Source: Paludibacter propionicigenes
Lineage (GTDB): Bacteria; Bacteroidota; Bacteroidia; Bacteroidales; JAFGXI01
Direction of reading: 5' to 3'
DNA length: 34,273 bases
Assembly (NCBI GenBank): GCA_020721655.1
Contig: DYMG01000020.1
Coordinates: forward strand, 1-34,273
Below the pieces are notes generated by a model that worked only from the letters and a program-made list of their open reading frames with translations, was not told where the DNA came from and made no database searches. This document shows positions 4,569-33,251 of the stretch, in pieces. Position 1 is the first letter of the stretch, and each line of letters begins with the position of its first letter. The position numbers and the translations under genes were made by a program.

Positions 4569-5198
4569 ATGCCGATACATTCATTAATACAAGGAATTGG
4601 TATTGGAATATTAGTATCGGCACCATTAGGTCCAATTGGTGTGTTAGTTATTCAAAAAACGCTTAATAAAGGTAAAACATCAGGATTAATAACAGGCTTT
4701 GGAGCCGCATCTGCAGACATATTTTATGCAATAATTGCAGCTTTTGGAGTAGCTATCATAACTAATTTTTTACAAACATACCAAAGCGAAATAAGGCTTA
4801 TAGGCGGAGTAGTATTAATGTTTTTTGCATATCACACATTTACAACTAATGTTTTAAAGCAATTTAAAGCTAACATAATTGGAAAAAAGAATTTTCTTGC
4901 TGATTATTTCTCTACGTTTTTTCTAACAGCCTCAAATCCAGTACCTTTTATTGTTTTTGGAATTTCTTTTGCTTCGTTAGATATGTCGAAAAAAAATATT
5001 TATGATATAATGATTATTGTTTTAGGAATTATTGCAGGAGCAGTCTTATGGTGGATATTTTTAGTGTCGATAATTAATGCATTCCGACATAAATTTAGGC
5101 TAAAACAACTTTGGTGGGTTAATAAAATAACAGGAGTACTTATAGCTTTATTTTCTATTTTTATAGTACTATCGGTTTTTTTTAATATTACACCATAA
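4569..5198 (+). CDS. LysE-family transporter
   Basis: This 209-residue inner-membrane protein has about six hydrophobic segments (roughly 6-26, 40-62, 72-92, 112-133, 144-168 and 184-205). The N-terminal pattern SAPLGPIGVLVIQKTLNKGK is the LysE/RhtB signature. The family exports amino acids such as lysine, arginine, homoserine or threonine; the substrate here cannot be told. A second family feature is the segment TASNPVPFIVFG near the middle. It is the last gene of the rsfS operon. Its last 30 bases overlap the 3' end of the convergent EgtD-like gene. Confidence 0.85.
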   Translation: MPIHSLIQGIGIGILVSAPLGPIGVLVIQKTLNKGKTSGLITGFGAASADIFYAIIAAFGVAIITNFLQTYQSEIRLIGGVVLMFFAYHTFTTNVLKQFKANIIGKKNFLADYFSTFFLTASNPVPFIVFGISFASLDMSKKNIYDIMIIVLGIIAGAVLWWIFLVSIINAFRHKFRLKQLWWVNKITGVLIALFSIFIVLSVFFNITP

Positions 5199-6116
5199 CG
5201 AATTTATAAAATATTCTTTATTGTCTGTGAAATTTTCAACTATTTCGAAGTCGTTTTTTTTAGCCAATTTATTTATTTCTAATTCCGTAAATTTTTTAGA
5301 TTGCCCAATATAAATAGGCTCAAATTTATCAAAATGAACTATTAAATTCAGATTTTTAATAAAAACATCTTGATTTAAAAGGCTAATAAAATACCATTTA
5401 AATTTTCCATTTACAGGATTGTAATTTGTGTAATACTTAAAATTATCAATAACTAAATTACCTCCAAGCTCAGAGTTTATTCTTGTTAGCAAATGCTTGC
5501 ACCATAAGTTGCAGGTATTATGATAGGCATTGTAAATAATTTCAGGATTCTTTTTTAAATCAAAACCAATAAATAAAAAATCGTTGTGATTTAAAATTGC
5601 AGAAAGTTTTTTTAAGAAAACAATAGTTTCGCTTTTGTTTAGCCCACCAATACTGCTACCAATAAATAAAACAATGTTTTTTAATCCGTCAGATTTAATA
5701 TCGTTTAAAGCATCAAAATAATCCTTTTTTTGGGGTAAAATATTTAGTTTTGGAAATTTAACCGAAAACTTTGATATTAAATCATTAATATACTTTTCAC
5801 TAAAATCTATCGGGATATAATTGAAATTGTAATTTAAAGATAACAGTTCATCAATCAATATAGAAGTTTTTGTAGCATCTCCGGCACCAAATTCAATCAA
5901 ATTAAATGGTTTGTTATCTAAATTTAATAGACCAATTATTTGCTTTTTATAATTATTAAAAATTTCAGTTTCACTTTTATAAACATAATAGTCTTCATTA
6001 ATCATTAATTCTTGAAAAAAATTACTACCAATTTCATCATAATAATCTCTATCCGGAATAAATTTATTTTTAGAAGTAAACCCTTTTTTAATATCATTTG
6101 CAAAAAAAATATCCAT
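5169..6116 (-). CDS. EgtD-like SAM-dependent methyltransferase (Methyltransf_33) with altered substrate site
   Basis: The 315 residues align over their length with EgtD, which trimethylates histidine to hercynine for ergothioneine. The N-terminal YYDEIGSNFFQELMINEDYY corresponds to the EgtD start, the SAM motif is EFGAGDATKTS (75-85), and the C-terminus has the family ending around FTDNKEYFINSLW. Two residues known from mycobacterial EgtD to hold histidine look changed. The Asn after GSTIG (N166) is Gly158 in GSSIGGLN, and Glu282 is Gly271 in IYIGQSKKF; Ser284 is kept as Ser273. No EgtB is nearby. I read it as a member of the fold with another substrate, not a safe EgtD. The start ATG at 6116 has a good -7 box upstream. 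It overlaps the LysE gene tail to tail by 30 bases. Confidence 0.82.
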   Translation of the reverse strand: MDIFFANDIKKGFTSKNKFIPDRDYYDEIGSNFFQELMINEDYYVYKSETEIFNNYKKQIIGLLNLDNKPFNLIEFGAGDATKTSILIDELLSLNYNFNYIPIDFSEKYINDLISKFSVKFPKLNILPQKKDYFDALNDIKSDGLKNIVLFIGSSIGGLNKSETIVFLKKLSAILNHNDFLFIGFDLKKNPEIIYNAYHNTCNLWCKHLLTRINSELGGNLVIDNFKYYTNYNPVNGKFKWYFISLLNQDVFIKNLNLIVHFDKFEPIYIGQSKKFTELEINKLAKKNDFEIVENFTDNKEYFINSLWCNIKKNR

Positions 6117-6135
6117 ACATCAATAAATTAATGAT

Positions 6136-6143
6136 CAAAAATA
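6136..6143 (-). promoter_or_regulatory. -7 box for the EgtD-like gene
   Basis: Minus-strand TATTTTTG fits TAnnTTTG and ends 19 bases before the ATG at 6116. The spacing gives a leader of about a dozen bases. Confidence 0.5.
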
Positions 6144-6342
6144 TAAAAACTATTTTAATAAAAAATAAATAGGCAATCAAAAATATTAAGTGTAATATCT
6201 TGTAAATAAGCTATATAATTAGCAATAATATTTTGTGAAGAAAAAAATGAAAATAATGTATATAAAACATTTATTTTTTTTTGTATTTATACTAACTTCG
6301 CAATGTTTTTTAAGAAAATATTTTTTAACTAAATATAATAGA

Positions 6343-9300
6343 ATGTCAAATAAAAAATTTATAACATGCGACGGTAATCAAGCAGCTGCACATGTTTCTT
6401 ACATTTTTAGTGAAGTTGCGGCTATTTATCCTATTACGCCATCATCAAATATGGCTGAATATGTTGATGAATGGGCAGCATCAGGAAGAAAAAATTTATG
6501 GGGAGAAACCGTAAGAGTTGTAGAAATGCAATCAGAAGGTGGTGCTGCCGGAGCTGTTCACGGCTCATTACAAGCCGGTGCATTAACCTCAACATATACA
6601 GCATCTCAAGGATTACTTTTAATGATCCCTAATATGTATAAAATTGCTGGAGAACTATTACCAGGCGTTTTTCACGTTAGTGCAAGAAGTTTAGCCGCTC
6701 AAGCATTATCAATATTTGGAGACCACTCCGATGTTATGAGTGCACGCCAAACAGGATTTGCATTTTTGGCAACAGGAAGTGTTCAAGAAGTTATGGATTT
6801 AGCTCCTGTAGCTCACTTATCAGCCATAAAAGGACGCTTACCATTTGTTCATTTTTTCGATGGTTTCCGTACATCTCACGAAATTCAAAAAGTAGAATAT
6901 TTCGATAACGATGATTTAAGAGATTTGGTTGATTACGAAGCATTGCAAAAATATAGAGACAACGCTCTTAATCCAGAACACCCAGTAACAAGAGGTACAG
7001 CACAAAACCCAGATGTGTATTTTCAAGCACGAGAGGCACAAAACAAATATTACGATGCTCTTCCAGATTTAGTAAACGAATATATGAAAGAAATTTCTAA
7101 ACGTTGCGGAAGAGATTACAAACCATTTACATATTACGGATCACCAGATGCCGAAAATATTTTAGTTGCAATGGGTTCCGTTACCGATGTTATTAAAGAA
7201 ACTATAGACCATTTATTAGCTCAAGGTAAAAAAGTTGGATTAATCTCAGTTCACTTATATCGCCCATTTTCAAGCAAATATTTCTTCAATGTTTTACCAA
7301 AATCAGTAAAGAAAATTTCAGTTTTAGATAGAACAAAAGAACACGGTGCAAATGGCGAACCTCTTTATTTAGACATAATAGAAATGTTCTATAATAGAGA
7401 AAATAAGCCAACAATAATTGGAGGAAGATACGGACTATCATCAAAAGATACAACACCTTCACATATTATATCTATATACAATAATTTAGAATTAAAAGAA
7501 CCAAAACACGGCTTCACAGTTTCAATTGTTGATGACGTTACATTTAAATCGTTACCAATATTACCTGAAATAAGCTTAAGTTCTGATGATACCTTTGAAG
7601 GTAAATTCTACGGTTTAGGTTCTGACGGAACAGTTGGTGCAAATAAAAACTCAATTAAAATTATTGGAGATACTACAGACTTATACGCACAAGCATATTT
7701 TGCTTACGATTCAAAAAAATCTGGTGGTTTTACAGCATCGCACTTACGCTTTGGAAAAGACCCAATACGCTCGCCATATTTAGTAGGAACACCAAACTTT
7801 GTTGCTTGCCACGTACCAGCATATTTAACTCAGTACGATATGCTTAGAGGAATTAAAGAAAACGGAACATTTTTAATGAACAGCCCTTGGGATACAGAAA
7901 CTACAAAAGCAAATTTGCCCGATTTCATTAAAAAAATATTAGCCGATAAAAAAATTAAATTCTACACAATTAATGCAACACAAATTGCCAAAGAAATTGG
8001 ATTAGGAAATATGACTAACACAATTCTACAATCGGCATTCTTTAAAATTGCAGAAATTATACCTTATCAACAAGCTGTAGAACAAATGAAAAAATTCATT
8101 GTTAAATCTTATGGCAGAAAAGGTGAGAAAGTTATAAATATGAACAATGCCGCTGTTGATAGAGGCGGAGAAATTACCAAAATTGAAGTGCCTTCAGAAT
8201 GGAGCAATATTAAAACCAACGGCTTTAAAATTGTAAGAGAAAAAGAAGTTCCAAAATTTATTTCAGAATTTTGCGATCCAATTAACGCACAAACAGGCGA
8301 CGATTTACCAGTAAGTGCATTTAACGGAATAGAAGACGGTACACTTCCTCAAGGAACAGCAGCATACGAAAAACGTGGAGTAGCAGTAAGCATTCCAGAA
8401 TGGAATTCAAGTACTTGTATTCAATGTAATCAATGCGCCTACGCTTGCCCTCATGCAGCAATTCGTCCATTCTTATTAACCGACCAAGAAGCTGAAAAAG
8501 CACCAAGCAATATGTCTGTAATTCAAGGCATTGGAGCAACAAAAGAGTACAAATTTAGAATACAAGTTTCCCCATTAGATTGTACAGGTTGTGGCGTTTG
8601 CGTTGATGTTTGTCCATCAAAACCAAACTCTTTAGAAATGAAGATGTTGCTTGAGAGGAAAGAAATAGAAGTTCCTCGTTGGGATTATTTAAACGATGTT
8701 GTAGGATACAAAGAAAATGTAGTTCCTAAAGATAAAACATTTAAAAATTCACAATTTGCACAACCACTTTTTGAATTCTCAGGAGCTTGTGCAGGTTGTG
8801 GAGAAACTCCATACATTAAAACCGCAACACAACTATTCGGAGAAGATATGCTAATTGCTAATGCAACAGGTTGTTCGTCTATTTATGGAGGTTCTAACCC
8901 TGCAACACCATACACCAAAAACCAAATTTCCGGACACGGACCTGCTTGGGCTAACTCATTATTCGAAGACAACGCAGAATACGGATTTGGAATGGCTTTA
9001 GCAAATAACAAACTTCGTGATAGAATTGCTGACCGTATGGAAAAAGCACTTGCAGAAAACATTTCTTCAGAACTAAAAGAAGGCTTTAAAGAATGGTTAG
9101 ATAACATTCATAGCACTTTAAGAACAAAAGAAATATCGGCAAAAATAATTCCATTGATGGAAAAAGAAAATAATGCTAACGTAAAAGAAATTATGGGATT
9201 AAAGCATTATTTAGTTAAAAAATCGCAATGGATTATTGGTGGCGACGGTTGGGCTTATGATATTGGATTTGGCGGATTAGACCATGTTCTTGCTATGGGC

Positions 9301-9938: not shown

Positions 9939-9969
9939 ATAAAATAAATTAAGTCTAAAGTATATTTTG

Positions 9970-9977
9970 TACATTTG
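9970..9977 (+). promoter_or_regulatory. -7 box of cdaA, almost touching the start codon
   Basis: TACATTTG is an exact TAnnTTTG box that ends only 4 bases before the cdaA ATG at 9982. If used, transcription starts at or very near the A of the ATG, so the mRNA would be leaderless or nearly so. Confidence 0.6.
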
Positions 9978-9981
9978 TAAT

Positions 9982-10764
9982 ATGTTGCAAGCATTTATAA
10001 CATTACAGTTTTTTGATATTGTAGATATATTAATAACAGCATTCTTATTATATCAACTTTATTTGCTATTGAAAGGCACAATTGCAATCAATATTTTGAT
10101 AGGAGTAACAACAATTTATTTCTTTTATGTGCTAGTAAACGCACTAAATATGAAATTGTTAAGCTCAATAATTGGACAATTTATGGGTGTAGGAGTTATA
10201 GCTATGATTGTTGTTTTTCAACAAGAAATACGTCGCTTTTTTCTGCTAATAGGTTCACGTTATTTAAAATCATCAACAAAATTTAAACTAAATAAATATT
10301 TTTCAAGCTCAGAATTTAAACCAAATCTTCAAATTGCCAATATTTTAGGCGAAACATTAATAAGTATGTCTAAAAACAAAACAGGAGCTTTAATTGTAAT
10401 AACTAAGCACTCGGCATTAGAACATATAATTAATTCAGGGGTTAGAATAGATTCTGAAATATCAAAAAGTTTAATAAAAAGTATTTTCTTTAAAAACAGT
10501 CCTTTACACGATGGGGCAATGGTTATTTCAAAAAATAGAATTGCCGCAGCCAAATGTATGTTGCCAGTAAGTCAAAGAACCGATGTCCCTGCTCAATACG
10601 GTCTTAGACACCGCTCGGCTGTCGGAATTTCTGAAAATACAGATGCACTTGTGCTTATTGTTTCTGAAGAAACAGGTAGAATATCATATTCGCTTGAAGG
10701 AAAATTAATTAAATTATTTAGCATTGATGAAATAATAGACATTTACACACAAAATGTTAATTAA
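9982..10764 (+). CDS. cdaA: Diadenylate cyclase CdaA (DisA_N domain)
   Basis: CdaA joins two ATP to c-di-AMP, a second messenger for potassium and osmotic balance and cell-wall state. The protein is 260 residues from ATG 9982. The first 90 residues hold three membrane helices and the conserved GQFMGVGVIAMIVVFQQEIRR. The cytosolic cyclase domain has D177-G178-A179 (SPLHDGAMVI) and R209-H210-R211 (GLRHRSAVG), both required for catalysis. An in-frame TTG at 9967 was rejected because it lies before the -7 box and family members begin with the ML-Q-type sequence used here. A terminator upstream and the promoter at 9970 make it a separate unit from PFOR. It could run on into the next gene, as no terminator follows. 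Confidence 0.96.
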   Translation: MLQAFITLQFFDIVDILITAFLLYQLYLLLKGTIAINILIGVTTIYFFYVLVNALNMKLLSSIIGQFMGVGVIAMIVVFQQEIRRFFLLIGSRYLKSSTKFKLNKYFSSSEFKPNLQIANILGETLISMSKNKTGALIVITKHSALEHIINSGVRIDSEISKSLIKSIFFKNSPLHDGAMVISKNRIAAAKCMLPVSQRTDVPAQYGLRHRSAVGISENTDALVLIVSEETGRISYSLEGKLIKLFSIDEIIDIYTQNVN

Positions 10765-11801: not shown

Positions 11802-12500
11802 ATGAAAACTTTTCCAATTTTATTAGCACTAGCATTTGCAGTGCTTGTTTCTTGCAATAAAGGAACAGACAAAAATGTGGCATTATCAACACAAAAAGAC
11901 TCAGTTAGTTATGCTTTAGGTATTGATATAGCTACAAACTTAAAAACATCTTTCGATACTCTTAATTTGGAAGCTTTTTATCAAGGTATTAAAGACATTT
12001 ATATTGATACTGCTGGATTATTTGACGACAAAAAAGCTCAAGAAATTATTATGAGATATATGAAGCAAGTACAAGATGAAAAAAGTAAACCACTTATTGC
12101 AGAAGGTGAAAAATTTCTCACAGAAAATGCAAAAAAAGAAGGTGTAAAAACAACACAAAGCGGTTTGCAATACGAAGTTATTTCTGAAGGAACAGGAAAT
12201 AAACCTGCTTTAACAGACGAAGTAAGCGTAAACTATACAGGAACTTTAATAGACGGAACTGTTTTTGACAGTAACAAAGATAAAGCTCCAGTTACATTTC
12301 CTCTAAATGGAGTTATTCCTGGCTGGTCAGAAGGTATTCAGTTAATGAATGTTGGCTCAAAATATAAATTTTATATACCTTACAACTTAGCTTATGGCGA
12401 AAGAGGTGCAGGAAATGTAATTAAACCATACTCAACATTAATTTTTGAAGTAGAACTTTTATCTTCAAAAAAAATTGAAGAAAATAAAGAAATGAAATAA
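11802..12500 (+). CDS. FKBP-type peptidyl-prolyl isomerase, lipoprotein
   Basis: The protein speeds cis-trans isomerisation of Xaa-Pro bonds in the periplasm or on the envelope surface. A lipoprotein signal ends at LVSC, so Cys18 should be lipidated. An FKBP_N dimerisation/chaperone domain (about 33-120) precedes an FKBP_C catalytic domain (about 125-221). The latter has [26 protein letters not shown] and [12 protein letters not shown], all normal. The architecture is that of FkpA/Mip. It ends 2 bases before a paralogue, and both share a 28-base identical stretch (12385-12412 and 13095-13122), which points to tandem duplication. The A-rich leader is typical, and a TAAATTCG box near 11768 may be the promoter. 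Confidence 0.93.
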
Positions 12501-12502
12501 TT

Positions 12503-13186
12503 ATGAGATTAGTAGCAATTATTTTAATAACTAGTTTAATAGCATTAACAAATGCTTTTTCACAAAAAAAAGGTAACGCAATGAAATTTAAAACCGAGTT
12601 AGATACAGTAAGTTACGCTTTAGGAATTGATGTTTTTAATAATTTAAAACAAAACGGATTAGATAATATAAATATTGAAGCATTTTCTCAAGCAATGCTC
12701 GATGCACAAAAAAACAATGAATTACCTATCGACCCAAATCAATCAAAACAAATTGTTCAAAATTATTTTGGTAAAATTCAAGCCGAAAAAAATAAACCTC
12801 TAATTCAAGAAGGAGCAAAATTTTTAGCTGAAAATGGAAAACGCAAAGAAGTTGTTACAACAAAAAGCGGTTTACAATACGAAGTAATAAAAGAAGGAAA
12901 CGGTACACACCCAACATTAACCGACAAAGTTAAAGTTCATTACCATGGAACTTTGTTAGACGGAACTGTTTTCGATAGCTCTGTAGATAGGGGAGAACCT
13001 ATAAGTTTTGGAGTAACTCAAGTAATTAAAGGTTGGACTGAAGCTCTTCAATTAATGAGTCCTGGTGCAAAATATAAATTGTATATTCCTTACGACTTAG
13101 CTTATGGCGAAAGAGGTGCAGGTGGAAGTATTAAACCTTTTGCAACATTAATTTTTGAAGTTGAATTAATAGAAATAGAAAAATAG
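12503..13186 (+). CDS. FKBP-type peptidyl-prolyl isomerase, secreted paralogue
   Basis: This is the second copy of the FkpA/Mip-like pair, 227 residues. It has an ordinary cleavable signal ([20 protein letters not shown]) instead of a lipobox, so it should be soluble in the periplasm. FKBP_N is at about 30-115 and FKBP_C at about 120-225, with [26 protein letters not shown] and [12 protein letters not shown]. The catalytic aromatic and Asp residues are kept. It is translated right after the lipoprotein copy (2-base gap) and ends at a strong terminator. The pair thus puts the same activity on the membrane and in the periplasmic space. Confidence 0.93.
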
Positions 13187-29692: not shown

Positions 29693-31834
29693 TTATTTTA
29701 CAATAGTTATTTCGTCAATTAACCTTTGTGAACCTGCAAACTTATCAATAATAAACAAAGCATAGCGAATGTCTAAAGAAATATTTCTGCACTGATTTGG
29801 GTCGTACATAATGTCGCTCATAGTTCCCTCCCAATTTCTATCAAAATTAACTCCAATAAGTTCGCCATTTGCATTTAAAACAGGGCTTCCAGAGTTTCCT
29901 CCGGTAGTATGGTTTGTTGCAATAAAACAAGTGTGAAGCGTGCTGTCTTTATCGGCATATTGTCCGTAATCTTTAGATTTATAAAGTTCTTTCAGTTTTT
30001 CAGGAACATCGTAATCGTAAATTTCGGGGTTGTCTTTTTCTATAATGCCATCTAAAGTTGTAAAATATTTGTAAATAACTCCATCGTTTGGTTCGTAAGT
30101 GTCTACGTTTCCGTAAGTTACTCGTAATGTAAAGTTTGCATCGGGGTATAGTGTTTTTGTAGAATTAAATTCTATTATTGCTTTTAAATATTTTTTATTA
30201 AGACTTTGTAATGCTAAGTTTGCCTCTTTTGTTGTTGTATAAACTTTTTCTCTATAGAAATTAATTACTTCAATTGTTGATGAATAAAATGGGTCGGCTT
30301 TTAATTTTTTTAATGAAAAATTATTTAAAAAATTTTCTAATCGCATTTTATCTGTAAAAATACTTTTAGCGTAAATTTTGTTTGCATAAGCATAAAAATC
30401 GCCCTTATATTTTTTATTAACCTCTTCTATAAATTTGGGTTTGTATTCATTTGCAACAGAATCGGCATAAATTTTATATAAAGCTGCAAATATTTTTTTA
30501 TCGGTTTCCAAATTAAAATTTTTAAAATGCCCTTCTATTCCTTTTTTTAATTTAGTTATTAATTCTTTTTGGGCATTTTGGTCTAAGTTTTCTAAATTTT
30601 CAAAATCTAATGCGTAATCGTTTGTTTCAATGCCGAGTACTGCTTCTAACATATACTGTTCTATAAACGAATAAGGCTTAAGTTGTGTGTATATTTTTTC
30701 GTATTCTGAAAGTATATTTCCGTATTCCGCTTTTCGTTCTTGGTTAGAGTTTATCCAATTTGTGAGTTCTTTTTCAAATTGTTTCTTTTTTTCAATTGCG
30801 TTCAATTTTTTTAAACCTTTGTTTTCCCCAATCCATTTTTTCCAAGCATTAGAAACATTTGCAGCTTTAGAAGCATATTGAATTCTAATTTTAGCACTTG
30901 TTTCCATATCTGCTTTCATTATATTGAGTTTGGTGTCTCTAATTTTAATTCTATTGGGATTTATTATATTCATAATACTTTCTACTGCAAATGAAGATAA
31001 GTATTCTGAGGTTCTTCCGGGATAACCAAAAACCATAGTAAAATCGCCTTTTTCAACGCCTTTTAGCGATATTGGAAAATGCTTTATTGGCTTATACGGA
31101 ACATTTTCTGCAGAATAATTTGCTGGTTCGTTGTTTTTGTTAGCATAAATTCTGAAAAGTGAAAAATCGCCTGTATGTCGGGGCCACATCCAATTGTCGG
31201 TATCGCCACCAAATTTTCCTATTGATGATGGAGGAGCTCCAACTAAACGAATATCGGTATAAACCTTATTTATAAATAAATAGTATGCATTTCCGTTAAA
31301 GAAAGGCTCTAATTCGGCTTCGTATATTGTGCCTTTTATGGCTTCTTGCTTAATTATTTCTATGTTTTTTTTAATTTGTTCGTTTTGCAACTCTTCCGAT
31401 AAATTTTTATCTATTCCACTGAGAACTTTTTCTGTAACATCTTCCATTTTAACTAAAAAAGTAACAGTTAAATTTGGATTTGGAAGCTCATCTCCAATTT
31501 TTTCTGCCCAATAACCATTTGTTAGATAATCGTGTTCAACAGAGCTGTGAGATTGTATTGAGCCATAACCACAATGATGGTTTGTTATTAAAAGTCCTTG
31601 GTCTGAAATTAATTCGCCAGTACAACCACCCCCAAAAATTACAACGGCATCTTTCATCGAAGCTTGGTTTATGCTATAAATATCTTCAGGTGTAAGCTTA
31701 AAACCTTTTTTCTTCATATCTTCATAATTGTATTTTTTTAACAGCAATGGAATCCACATTCCTTCGTCGGCAATTAAAAAAATGGAACTGTTTATTGTAA
31801 AAACAACTAATAGTATAATTTTAATAAATTTCAT
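29693..31834 (-). CDS. S46 family dipeptidyl-peptidase, DPP11-like (Asp/Glu-specific)
   Basis: This is a secreted or periplasmic serine peptidase that releases dipeptides. It has 713 residues, a signal at 1-22 and the S46 domain throughout. The catalytic His is in TNHHCGYGS (near 85-90), Asp in GGDTDNWMWPRHTGDF, and the Ser is S648 in GGNSGSPVLN. In P. gingivalis enzymes the residue 18 after the nucleophile decides P1 choice, Gly in DPP7 and Arg in DPP11. Here it is Arg666 in FDRNWE, so acidic P1 residues are predicted. The gene starts after a run of 12 A bases in the coding sense, right before the ATG. With arginine deiminase beside it (divergent), it suggests peptide and amino-acid use, though not the same transcript. 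Confidence 0.95.
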   Translation of the reverse strand: MKFIKIILLVVFTINSSIFLIADEGMWIPLLLKKYNYEDMKKKGFKLTPEDIYSINQASMKDAVVIFGGGCTGELISDQGLLITNHHCGYGSIQSHSSVEHDYLTNGYWAEKIGDELPNPNLTVTFLVKMEDVTEKVLSGIDKNLSEELQNEQIKKNIEIIKQEAIKGTIYEAELEPFFNGNAYYLFINKVYTDIRLVGAPPSSIGKFGGDTDNWMWPRHTGDFSLFRIYANKNNEPANYSAENVPYKPIKHFPISLKGVEKGDFTMVFGYPGRTSEYLSSFAVESIMNIINPNRIKIRDTKLNIMKADMETSAKIRIQYASKAANVSNAWKKWIGENKGLKKLNAIEKKKQFEKELTNWINSNQERKAEYGNILSEYEKIYTQLKPYSFIEQYMLEAVLGIETNDYALDFENLENLDQNAQKELITKLKKGIEGHFKNFNLETDKKIFAALYKIYADSVANEYKPKFIEEVNKKYKGDFYAYANKIYAKSIFTDKMRLENFLNNFSLKKLKADPFYSSTIEVINFYREKVYTTTKEANLALQSLNKKYLKAIIEFNSTKTLYPDANFTLRVTYGNVDTYEPNDGVIYKYFTTLDGIIEKDNPEIYDYDVPEKLKELYKSKDYGQYADKDSTLHTCFIATNHTTGGNSGSPVLNANGELIGVNFDRNWEGTMSDIMYDPNQCRNISLDIRYALFIIDKFAGSQRLIDEITIVK

Positions 31835-31988: not shown

Positions 31989-33251
31989 ATGTCAACCGAT
32001 TTTAATATAAATATTAATTCAGAAATAGGTAAGTTAAAAGGAGTAATACTTCACACACCGGGAAAAGAAGTTAAAAACATGATTCCCGAAAATGCCAGCA
32101 GAGCACTATATAGCGACATTTTAAACATTGAAATTGTAAATAAAGAATATTCTCAATTTAAAGGTGTTTTAGATAAAGTTACTAAAACATTTGAGGTAAA
32201 AGATTTATTTGCCGATGTTATAGCTGATGCGAATATTAAATCATCAATAATTTCGGAAATATTAAAAAATGAAAATACTTTTGATGAAGATCAATACATT
32301 TTATCGTTATCCGATAAAGAATTAACAAACCAGTTATTTGAGGGTGTTCTTATGAATAAAAATACGGTTTCAAAGTTTCTTAATAAAGACCGTTATTCAC
32401 TAAAACCTTTATATAATTTCTTTTTTACTCGCGATGCTTCAATTTCGTTTGGAAATAAAGTAATTATTGGCAAAATGGCAAGTCCAATTCGTGATAGAGA
32501 ATCATTAATAATGGATTATATTTTTAGAAATCATAATATTTTTAAAGCCAATACAATAAATCCAAACCTAAAAATAGAAAATGCAGATTTAAAAATAGAA
32601 GGTGGCGATATTTTAATTGCACGAGAAGATATTTTACTCGTAGGTATGGGAGCAAGAACAAACTCCGATGCAATAGACTTTTTAATTTCTAACATTAAAC
32701 AAGACAGAAAAACAAAATTTCATATTTTAGTCCAAGAATTACCAACTTCGCCAGAATCGTTCATACATTTAGATATGGTTTTTACTCTTATTGATAGAGA
32801 TAGATGCATGGTATATTCTCCATTAATTTTAAAATCAGGCACTTATAAAACAATCCACATTGAATTAGATGAAGGAAAAACAAAATCGATAACCGAAGAA
32901 AATAATTTAATAGAAGCATTGCAAAAATTGGGAATGGAGCTTAAGCCTATAATGTGCGGAGGAAATGCCGACAAATGGAGTCAAGACCGAGAACAATGGC
33001 ATAGTGGAGCAAATTTTTTCGCATTTGAACCGGGTAAAATTATTGGATACGGACGAAATATTAATACAATAAATGCACTAAACGACGATGGTTTTTCTGT
33101 TCTAAAATCAGAAGATGTTATATCTGGAAAAGTTAAAATTGATGATTATAAAAAATGCGTTGTAACAATTGATGGCTCAGAATTGGCAAGAGGTGGAGGT
33201 GGTGCACGTTGTATGACTATGCCAATTTATAGGGAATCGGTAATATGGTAA
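31989..33251 (+). CDS. arcA: Arginine deiminase ArcA
   Basis: ArcA hydrolyses arginine to citrulline and ammonia. The 420 residues are of family size. The guanidino-binding and catalytic motifs are FTRD (146-149), EGGD (204-207), HLD (260-262) and the nucleophile C408 in GGGARCMTMPI. The N-terminal IGKLKGVILHTPGKEV is the usual start. arcB and arcC do not follow; a peptidoglycan LD-carboxypeptidase does, 7 bases later. It may therefore act in acid or ammonia supply, or with unlinked arc genes, instead of a local ADI operon. It has its own promoter divergent from the S46 peptidase. Confidence 0.96.
   Translation: MSTDFNININSEIGKLKGVILHTPGKEVKNMIPENASRALYSDILNIEIVNKEYSQFKGVLDKVTKTFEVKDLFADVIADANIKSSIISEILKNENTFDEDQYILSLSDKELTNQLFEGVLMNKNTVSKFLNKDRYSLKPLYNFFFTRDASISFGNKVIIGKMASPIRDRESLIMDYIFRNHNIFKANTINPNLKIENADLKIEGGDILIAREDILLVGMGARTNSDAIDFLISNIKQDRKTKFHILVQELPTSPESFIHLDMVFTLIDRDRCMVYSPLILKSGTYKTIHIELDEGKTKSITEENNLIEALQKLGMELKPIMCGGNADKWSQDREQWHSGANFFAFEPGKIIGYGRNINTINALNDDGFSVLKSEDVISGKVKIDDYKKCVVTIDGSELARGGGGARCMTMPIYRESVIW

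Follow-up and report, generated by a model that had tools for sequence, protein, structure and literature searches.

An EgtD-family methyltransferase with a rebuilt histidine pocket in Bacteroidales may act on a non-histidine amino acid

Introduction

The Pfam family PF10017 (Methyltransf_33) takes its name from histidine, and its members serve genome surveys as markers of ergothioneine synthesis. The 34,273-nucleotide stretch analyzed here (the window; contig DYMG01000020.1 of assembly GCA_020721655.1, positions 1 to 34,273) comes from an uncultured Bacteroidales bacterium (genome G000) and carries a member of this family in which, according to the original prediction, both histidine-recognition residues are replaced by glycine, raising the question of whether the enzyme still methylates histidine or belongs to a branch that acts on a different amino acid or amine. 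According to the available part of a structural report on Mycobacterium tuberculosis EgtD (PMC8593015), Asn166 binds the alpha-amino side of the substrate in bidentate fashion, the carboxylate is held by Tyr56, Tyr206 and Ser284, and Thr213 and the Ala205 carbonyl order a water that meets the imidazole; a review, in the part available, calls Asn166 critical in the methylation sequence (PMC9103826).

Results

The gene lies on the minus strand at 5169..6116 and encodes, in an intact ORF with an ATG start, a 315-residue SAM-dependent methyltransferase of the EgtD family with an altered pocket. An EgtD-like enzyme had been placed here without its strand, and the PF10017 match indeed runs along the whole protein (residues 5-308, E 2.9e-68, 230.6 bits against a gathering cut-off of 23). 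The EgtD equivalog TIGR03438 gives 193.8 bits, below its curated cut-off of 290.9; four branch relatives score 191-225, and six relatives with the ancestral Asn/Glu pair score 279-348, four of them passing. The warning that domain matching would mis-annotate the protein as a histidine methyltransferase thus holds for Pfam-level names but not for the NCBI equivalog. The EasF family (TIGR03439), fungal N-methyltransferases of dimethylallyltryptophan, belongs to the same superfamily; the window protein scores only 125.1 bits there, weaker than with the EgtD model and below the cut-off of 205.55. An AlphaFold model built from a 73-row alignment (A1) has a mean pLDDT of 95.8 and a pTM of 0.91, and comparison with the PDB puts nine EgtD entries on top (Z 34.7-36.4, next family Z 17.7), with Z about 36 over 301 residues at 2.0 Å against the EgtD crystal structures. 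Given this model quality and the entries heading the comparison, the predicted protein is EgtD-like in whole fold and domain architecture.

Alignment with M. smegmatis EgtD sets GSSIGG158L opposite GSTIGN166L and IYIG271QS273KKF opposite MLTE282VS284CKF, placing Gly158 (codon 5643..5645, minus strand) at Asn166, the alpha-amine contact, and Gly271 (5304..5306, minus strand) at Glu282, on the imidazole side, as originally claimed; both glycines are encoded by GGG. The SAM site is retained, as is the carboxylate contact Ser284 (Ser273, codon 5298..5300, minus strand), again in agreement with that claim, and so are the other two members of the carboxylate clamp, Tyr56 and Tyr206. The description of both lost residues as histidine-recognizing needs qualification, as it suits Glu282 but not Asn166, which binds the alpha-amino group and is not side-chain specific in the available part of PMC8593015; its loss therefore bears on the amine position and not on the identity of histidine.

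The two glycines stand, but the pocket change is wider than claimed. Thr213 is replaced by Cys202 (codon 5511..5513, minus strand), which directly follows a three-residue deletion, common to the branch, in the pocket loop after Tyr206; Met252, a Ser in the surrounding clade, is replaced by Trp241 (5394..5396, minus strand), and Leu254 by Phe243. The window protein hence lacks the residue set specific for histidine in EgtD/EanA enzymes (Asn166, Glu282, Thr213, Met/Ser252) while keeping the SAM site and clamp. Across the surrounding clade, all 62 rows have Asn at position 166 and Glu at position 282, so the double change goes beyond ordinary variation, and a sequencing slip is excluded because the separately assembled genome G001, of the same genus, also reads Gly/Gly and G004, of the same family, Gly/Ser. 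Asp22 (Pro35 in M. smegmatis, mostly Ser in the clade) could be a new pocket acid replacing Glu282; since it starts a short helix (22-25) in the model, a helix-capping role like that of Ser is more likely.

We searched for relatives of the window protein and found matches in 68 of 393 genomes of the order and 128 of 395 genomes of the phylum. Beside the window's genome, the closest are G001 (63% identity) and G004 (52%), and these three form a core of four with G014, which reads Asn/Gly at positions 166/282. The core shares D22, Y25, S155, C202, W205, C206, Y228, W241 and F243, together with the loop deletion, against the 62 clade rows. In a tree of 97 rows, computed with columns 166 and 282 removed and without fragments or very divergent rows (L011, L048, L095, L112, L113, L115, L117, L118, L119, L126, L134 and L139), the four join at 100/98 and are nested among Asn/Glu enzymes, with G184, which also reads Asn/Gly but has its own pocket residues, added as sister at 95/81. 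The altered enzymes thus form a real branch in the tree. Because G014 and G184 have Gly at 282 and yet keep Asn166, the alignment makes it most likely that Glu282 was lost first and Asn166 later, in the window's family; the deeper order of losses is less sure, since G014 and G184 have long terminal branches. A second order-wide search, which drew almost the same genomes, returned no further branch member, and a scan of the genome contigs found the G001 record alone. A sister clade (L050, L096 and others; about 25-30% identity) was considered as the source of the branch and set aside: it is a separate Asn/Glu group, in genomes mostly with EanB.

All five intact members (G000, G001, G004, G014 and G184, each an uninterrupted ORF) keep, in window numbering, the SAM-site residues Gly77, Asp104, Asp132 and Gly153 and the acceptor-site residues Tyr26, Tyr43, Tyr198 and Ser273. 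This conservation bears on two alternatives. The enzyme might methylate an amine, a modified thiol or the N-terminus of a peptide instead of a free amino acid: with Asn166 the anchor for the alpha-amine is gone, the loop at the pocket is shorter, and NmbA, which N-methylates bacillithiol in the available part of PMC6282198, is among the lower-ranked structural neighbors (9ri2, Z 17.3). A Z of 17 is, however, common to many unrelated methyltransferases in the comparison, and all three carboxylate contacts persist in every intact member, so that we consider such an acceptor unlikely. It seems very improbable that the protein binds SAM without methyl transfer, as a sensor or structural component; although Asn166, critical according to the accessible portion of PMC9103826, is gone in the window's family, such a role would not need the Tyr and Ser ligands of the acceptor carboxylate, and these are conserved.

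Could the gene instead be decaying, as a leftover of an EgtD/EanA enzyme after loss of the ergothioneine pathway? It is absent from three of six genomes of the window's family, a copy with pocket changes in G131 is broken by three stops, and the altered copies in G097, G198, G283, G022 and G200 have lost SAM-site residues too and have no partner enzymes. The window branch is set apart from these five copies by its retained SAM site, and it has new residues at fixed places as well as intact ORFs in its five members. Between the window and G001, identity is 63% at the protein level and 48% at third codon positions, with no stops, whereas drift simulated 200 times until third positions had diverged equally far left 16% protein identity (24% at most) and no fewer than 15 stops. 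NG86 dN/dS comes to 0.108 against G001 and 0.226 against G004, rough values given that dS exceeds 1.7 and is saturated. The methyltransferase gene is under strong purifying selection, and we regard decay as quite unlikely.

Three of the SAM-site-deficient copies, in G097 (L095), G283 (L112) and G198 (L113), are strongly diverged PF10017-related proteins from genomes of one family (f93), in three of which they persist despite loss of the Asp113 and Gly161 SAM-site positions. Separately, G001 holds a third, weak PF10017 match (37.9 bits) within a 507-aa frame (G001:C117:5751-6143, L014).

The gene neighborhood names no pathway. A convergent LysE-type translocator gene (4569..5198, plus strand; PF01810, 2.7e-22) overlaps the methyltransferase by 30 bases and, read as an operon, would suggest product export; this reading was set aside, as G001 has other neighbors, namely 4Fe-4S and NrfD-like electron-transfer genes, in place of the LysE gene, and the translocator, not being conserved there, is probably unrelated. 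On the other side, an intergenic region (6117..6345) separates the methyltransferase from a divergent pyruvate:ferredoxin oxidoreductase (POR) gene, an arrangement found otherwise only in G001; POR was likewise rejected as a conserved partner, for in G004 POR is found on a different contig, preceded by 4.7 kb. No conserved partner gene was found in the neighborhoods compared (G000, G001 and G004), and the neighbors thus reveal neither a pathway nor a substrate. Elsewhere in the window are two tandem FKBP-type peptidyl-prolyl isomerase genes (11802-13186, plus strand) downstream of a CdaA-type diadenylate cyclase gene (9967-10764), and an arginine deiminase family gene (31989-33251, plus strand) with an S46 peptidase gene (29693-31834) on the other strand.

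The absence of ergothioneine genes near the locus, noted originally, extends genome-wide: G000 (92% complete) has no EgtB match over the cut-off and no EanB match. A third ergothioneine synthase, the molybdopterin enzyme MES, is described in the available part of PMC9516567; the single molybdopterin enzyme of G000, a Tat-type protein of 757 aa, is too short for the fused cysteine-desulfurase part and hence not MES. No sulfur-inserting partner (EgtB, EanB or MES) was thus found in G000. Molybdopterin proteins of 1215-1245 aa in G001, G004 and G106 were discarded as MES candidates because, in sequences read by eye, they begin with a 2Fe-2S NuoG-like part; the exclusion of MES covers these three genomes and G000, and G184 also has a long frame.

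Relatives with Asn/Glu offer the opposite picture. EgtB adjoins them in 32 of 69 clustered loci, a few of which are overlapping stretches of one genome, and others adjoin a rhodanese-type protein of about 427 aa that passes no NCBIfam cut-off and is taken as EanB by fold class and position. EanB is the anaerobic sulfur-inserting enzyme of the EanA/EanB pair of Chlorobium, as described in the available parts of PMC9103826 and PMC6282198. We searched 77 Bacteroidota genomes for both partners, counting EanB at E <= 1e-70 and EgtB only over the cut-off. Among the 63 with Asn/Glu enzymes, 42 have EanB only, 13 EgtB only, 4 both and 4 neither, that is, a partner in 59/63 versus 0/10 genomes with altered enzymes only (Fisher's test, p = 1.6e-9, overstated because the ten genomes represent about four lineages); several of the ten are incomplete assemblies, and G131 is counted from a fragment covering residue 282 only. 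The remaining four are G017 and G093, which have a fragment without residue 282 and both have EanB, and G543 and G603, without sequence; no usable protein could be obtained from two weak matches, L127 (G356) and L128 (G346). Within G001, one contig carries an Asn/Glu copy (L050) clustered with EanB, and the Gly/Gly copy lies on another. The altered pocket goes with loss of ergothioneine synthesis.

These counts also weigh on the alternative that the enzyme still N-alpha-methylates histidine, to hercynine or no further than mono- or dimethylhistidine, and that no sulfur is then inserted. The overall fold has not changed, nor has most of the enzyme, and the 4/63 intact Asn/Glu genomes that also have neither EgtB nor EanB imply that hercynine-only genomes may exist. 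The imidazole-side residues checked (Thr213, Met252 and Glu282) have nevertheless all changed, and no altered genome has either partner, which makes continued histidine methylation distinctly improbable.

Several loci among the relatives deserve attention in their own right. In G262 (G262:C103:3112-6516, L156), which lacks EgtB over the cut-off and EanB, the Asn/Glu methyltransferase directly adjoins a molybdopterin enzyme that provides a lead as a candidate MES-type ergothioneine synthase, in a stretch containing masked bases. Apparent EanB-EanA fusions in one frame occur in Bacteroidales at G017:C693:8746-10734 (L011, 676 aa) and G349:C19:147672-149849 (L098, 747 aa). A conserved protein of about 286 aa, for which the single member searched has no Pfam hit, is encoded next to the Asn/Glu methyltransferase at 8 of 69 loci (L018:331-1191, minus strand, and similar ORFs in L019, L021, L022, L028, L037, L038 and L057) and is possibly an ergothioneine-linked gene; a short DUF427-looking protein recurs in eight loci.

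Discussion

The window protein appears to have EgtD-like workings yet should not be filed as EgtD, because the equivalog score falls short, the histidine-pocket residues are gone and the partner enzyme is missing. Against Mycobacterium EgtD (PDB 4pim, 4pio, 4uy7 and 7scf), with 23-24% identity in structural alignment, it has the same fold, SAM site, Tyr39, Tyr56, Tyr206 and Ser284 but differs at Asn166, Glu282, Thr213, Met252 and Leu254 as well as in loop 207-212, and EgtB is absent from its genome. The EanA-type enzymes that lie beside EanB in anaerobic Bacteroidales (for example L018, L020 and L031) are nearer, in the same clade and order at about 35-42% identity; they keep Asn/Asn/Thr/Ser/Glu at 163/166/213/252/282 and have EanB, whereas the window has neither.

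A real branch, purifying selection, retention of the SAM site and clamp, and the lack of a known ergothioneine synthase together make a different amino acid the best reading. We consider it somewhat probable that the protein is a SAM-dependent N-methyltransferase of a non-histidine amino acid, derived from a histidine-specific EgtD/EanA ancestor. The enzyme would bind SAM and clamp the alpha-carboxylate through Tyr56, Tyr206 and Ser284, as retained in the alignment, and transfer methyl onto the alpha-amino group of the new substrate. From alignment and tree, the imidazole sub-site (Thr213, Met252, Leu254 and Glu282) and the neighboring loop may have been rebuilt first, with the amine-holding Asn166 then lost as well in the window's family. 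Retention of the clamp suggests an alpha-amino acid as the new substrate; as polar Thr and Glu are lost and Trp and Phe gained, we would guess at a nonpolar or aromatic side chain. Counted against this reading of a non-histidine amino acid substrate are the lack of a pathway neighbor, the patchy presence in the family, the broken G131 copy and the saturated dS.

A tryptophan-specific EgtD was reportedly the subject of a 2015 paper by Vit. Positions 252 and 282 bear on side-chain choice, since engineered EgtD M252V/E282A was, by the title of its PDB entry (4pip), solved with tryptophan. Glu282 gives way to a small residue both there and in the window protein; the engineered enzyme, however, is laboratory-made, has a smaller residue at Met252 and keeps Asn166, while Trp at 252 in the window narrows the pocket, opposite to the engineered tryptophan-using enzyme, and this too speaks against the favored reading. 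Among the papers listed in our literature searches, no title or abstract opening reports Gly at positions 166/282 or the branch.

Residues 166 and 282 almost perfectly tell the presence of an ergothioneine synthase in the 77 Bacteroidota genomes compared, and a two-residue check would therefore clean up ergothioneine surveys. The branch is a natural counterpart to the engineered EgtD specificity change, with intermediates, Asn kept and Glu lost, still present in related genomes. We tentatively propose, as a possibility somewhat short of probable, a bacterial synthase of EgtD fold that makes an amino-acid betaine (or an N-methyl amino acid) and evolved naturally away from histidine in Bacteroidales by two-step remodeling of the imidazole sub-site and then of the amine anchor. 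The branch may point the way to a betaine or N-methyl amino acid that is new and, if the proposal is true, genomes with such a synthase would make an unrecognized N-methylated amino acid.
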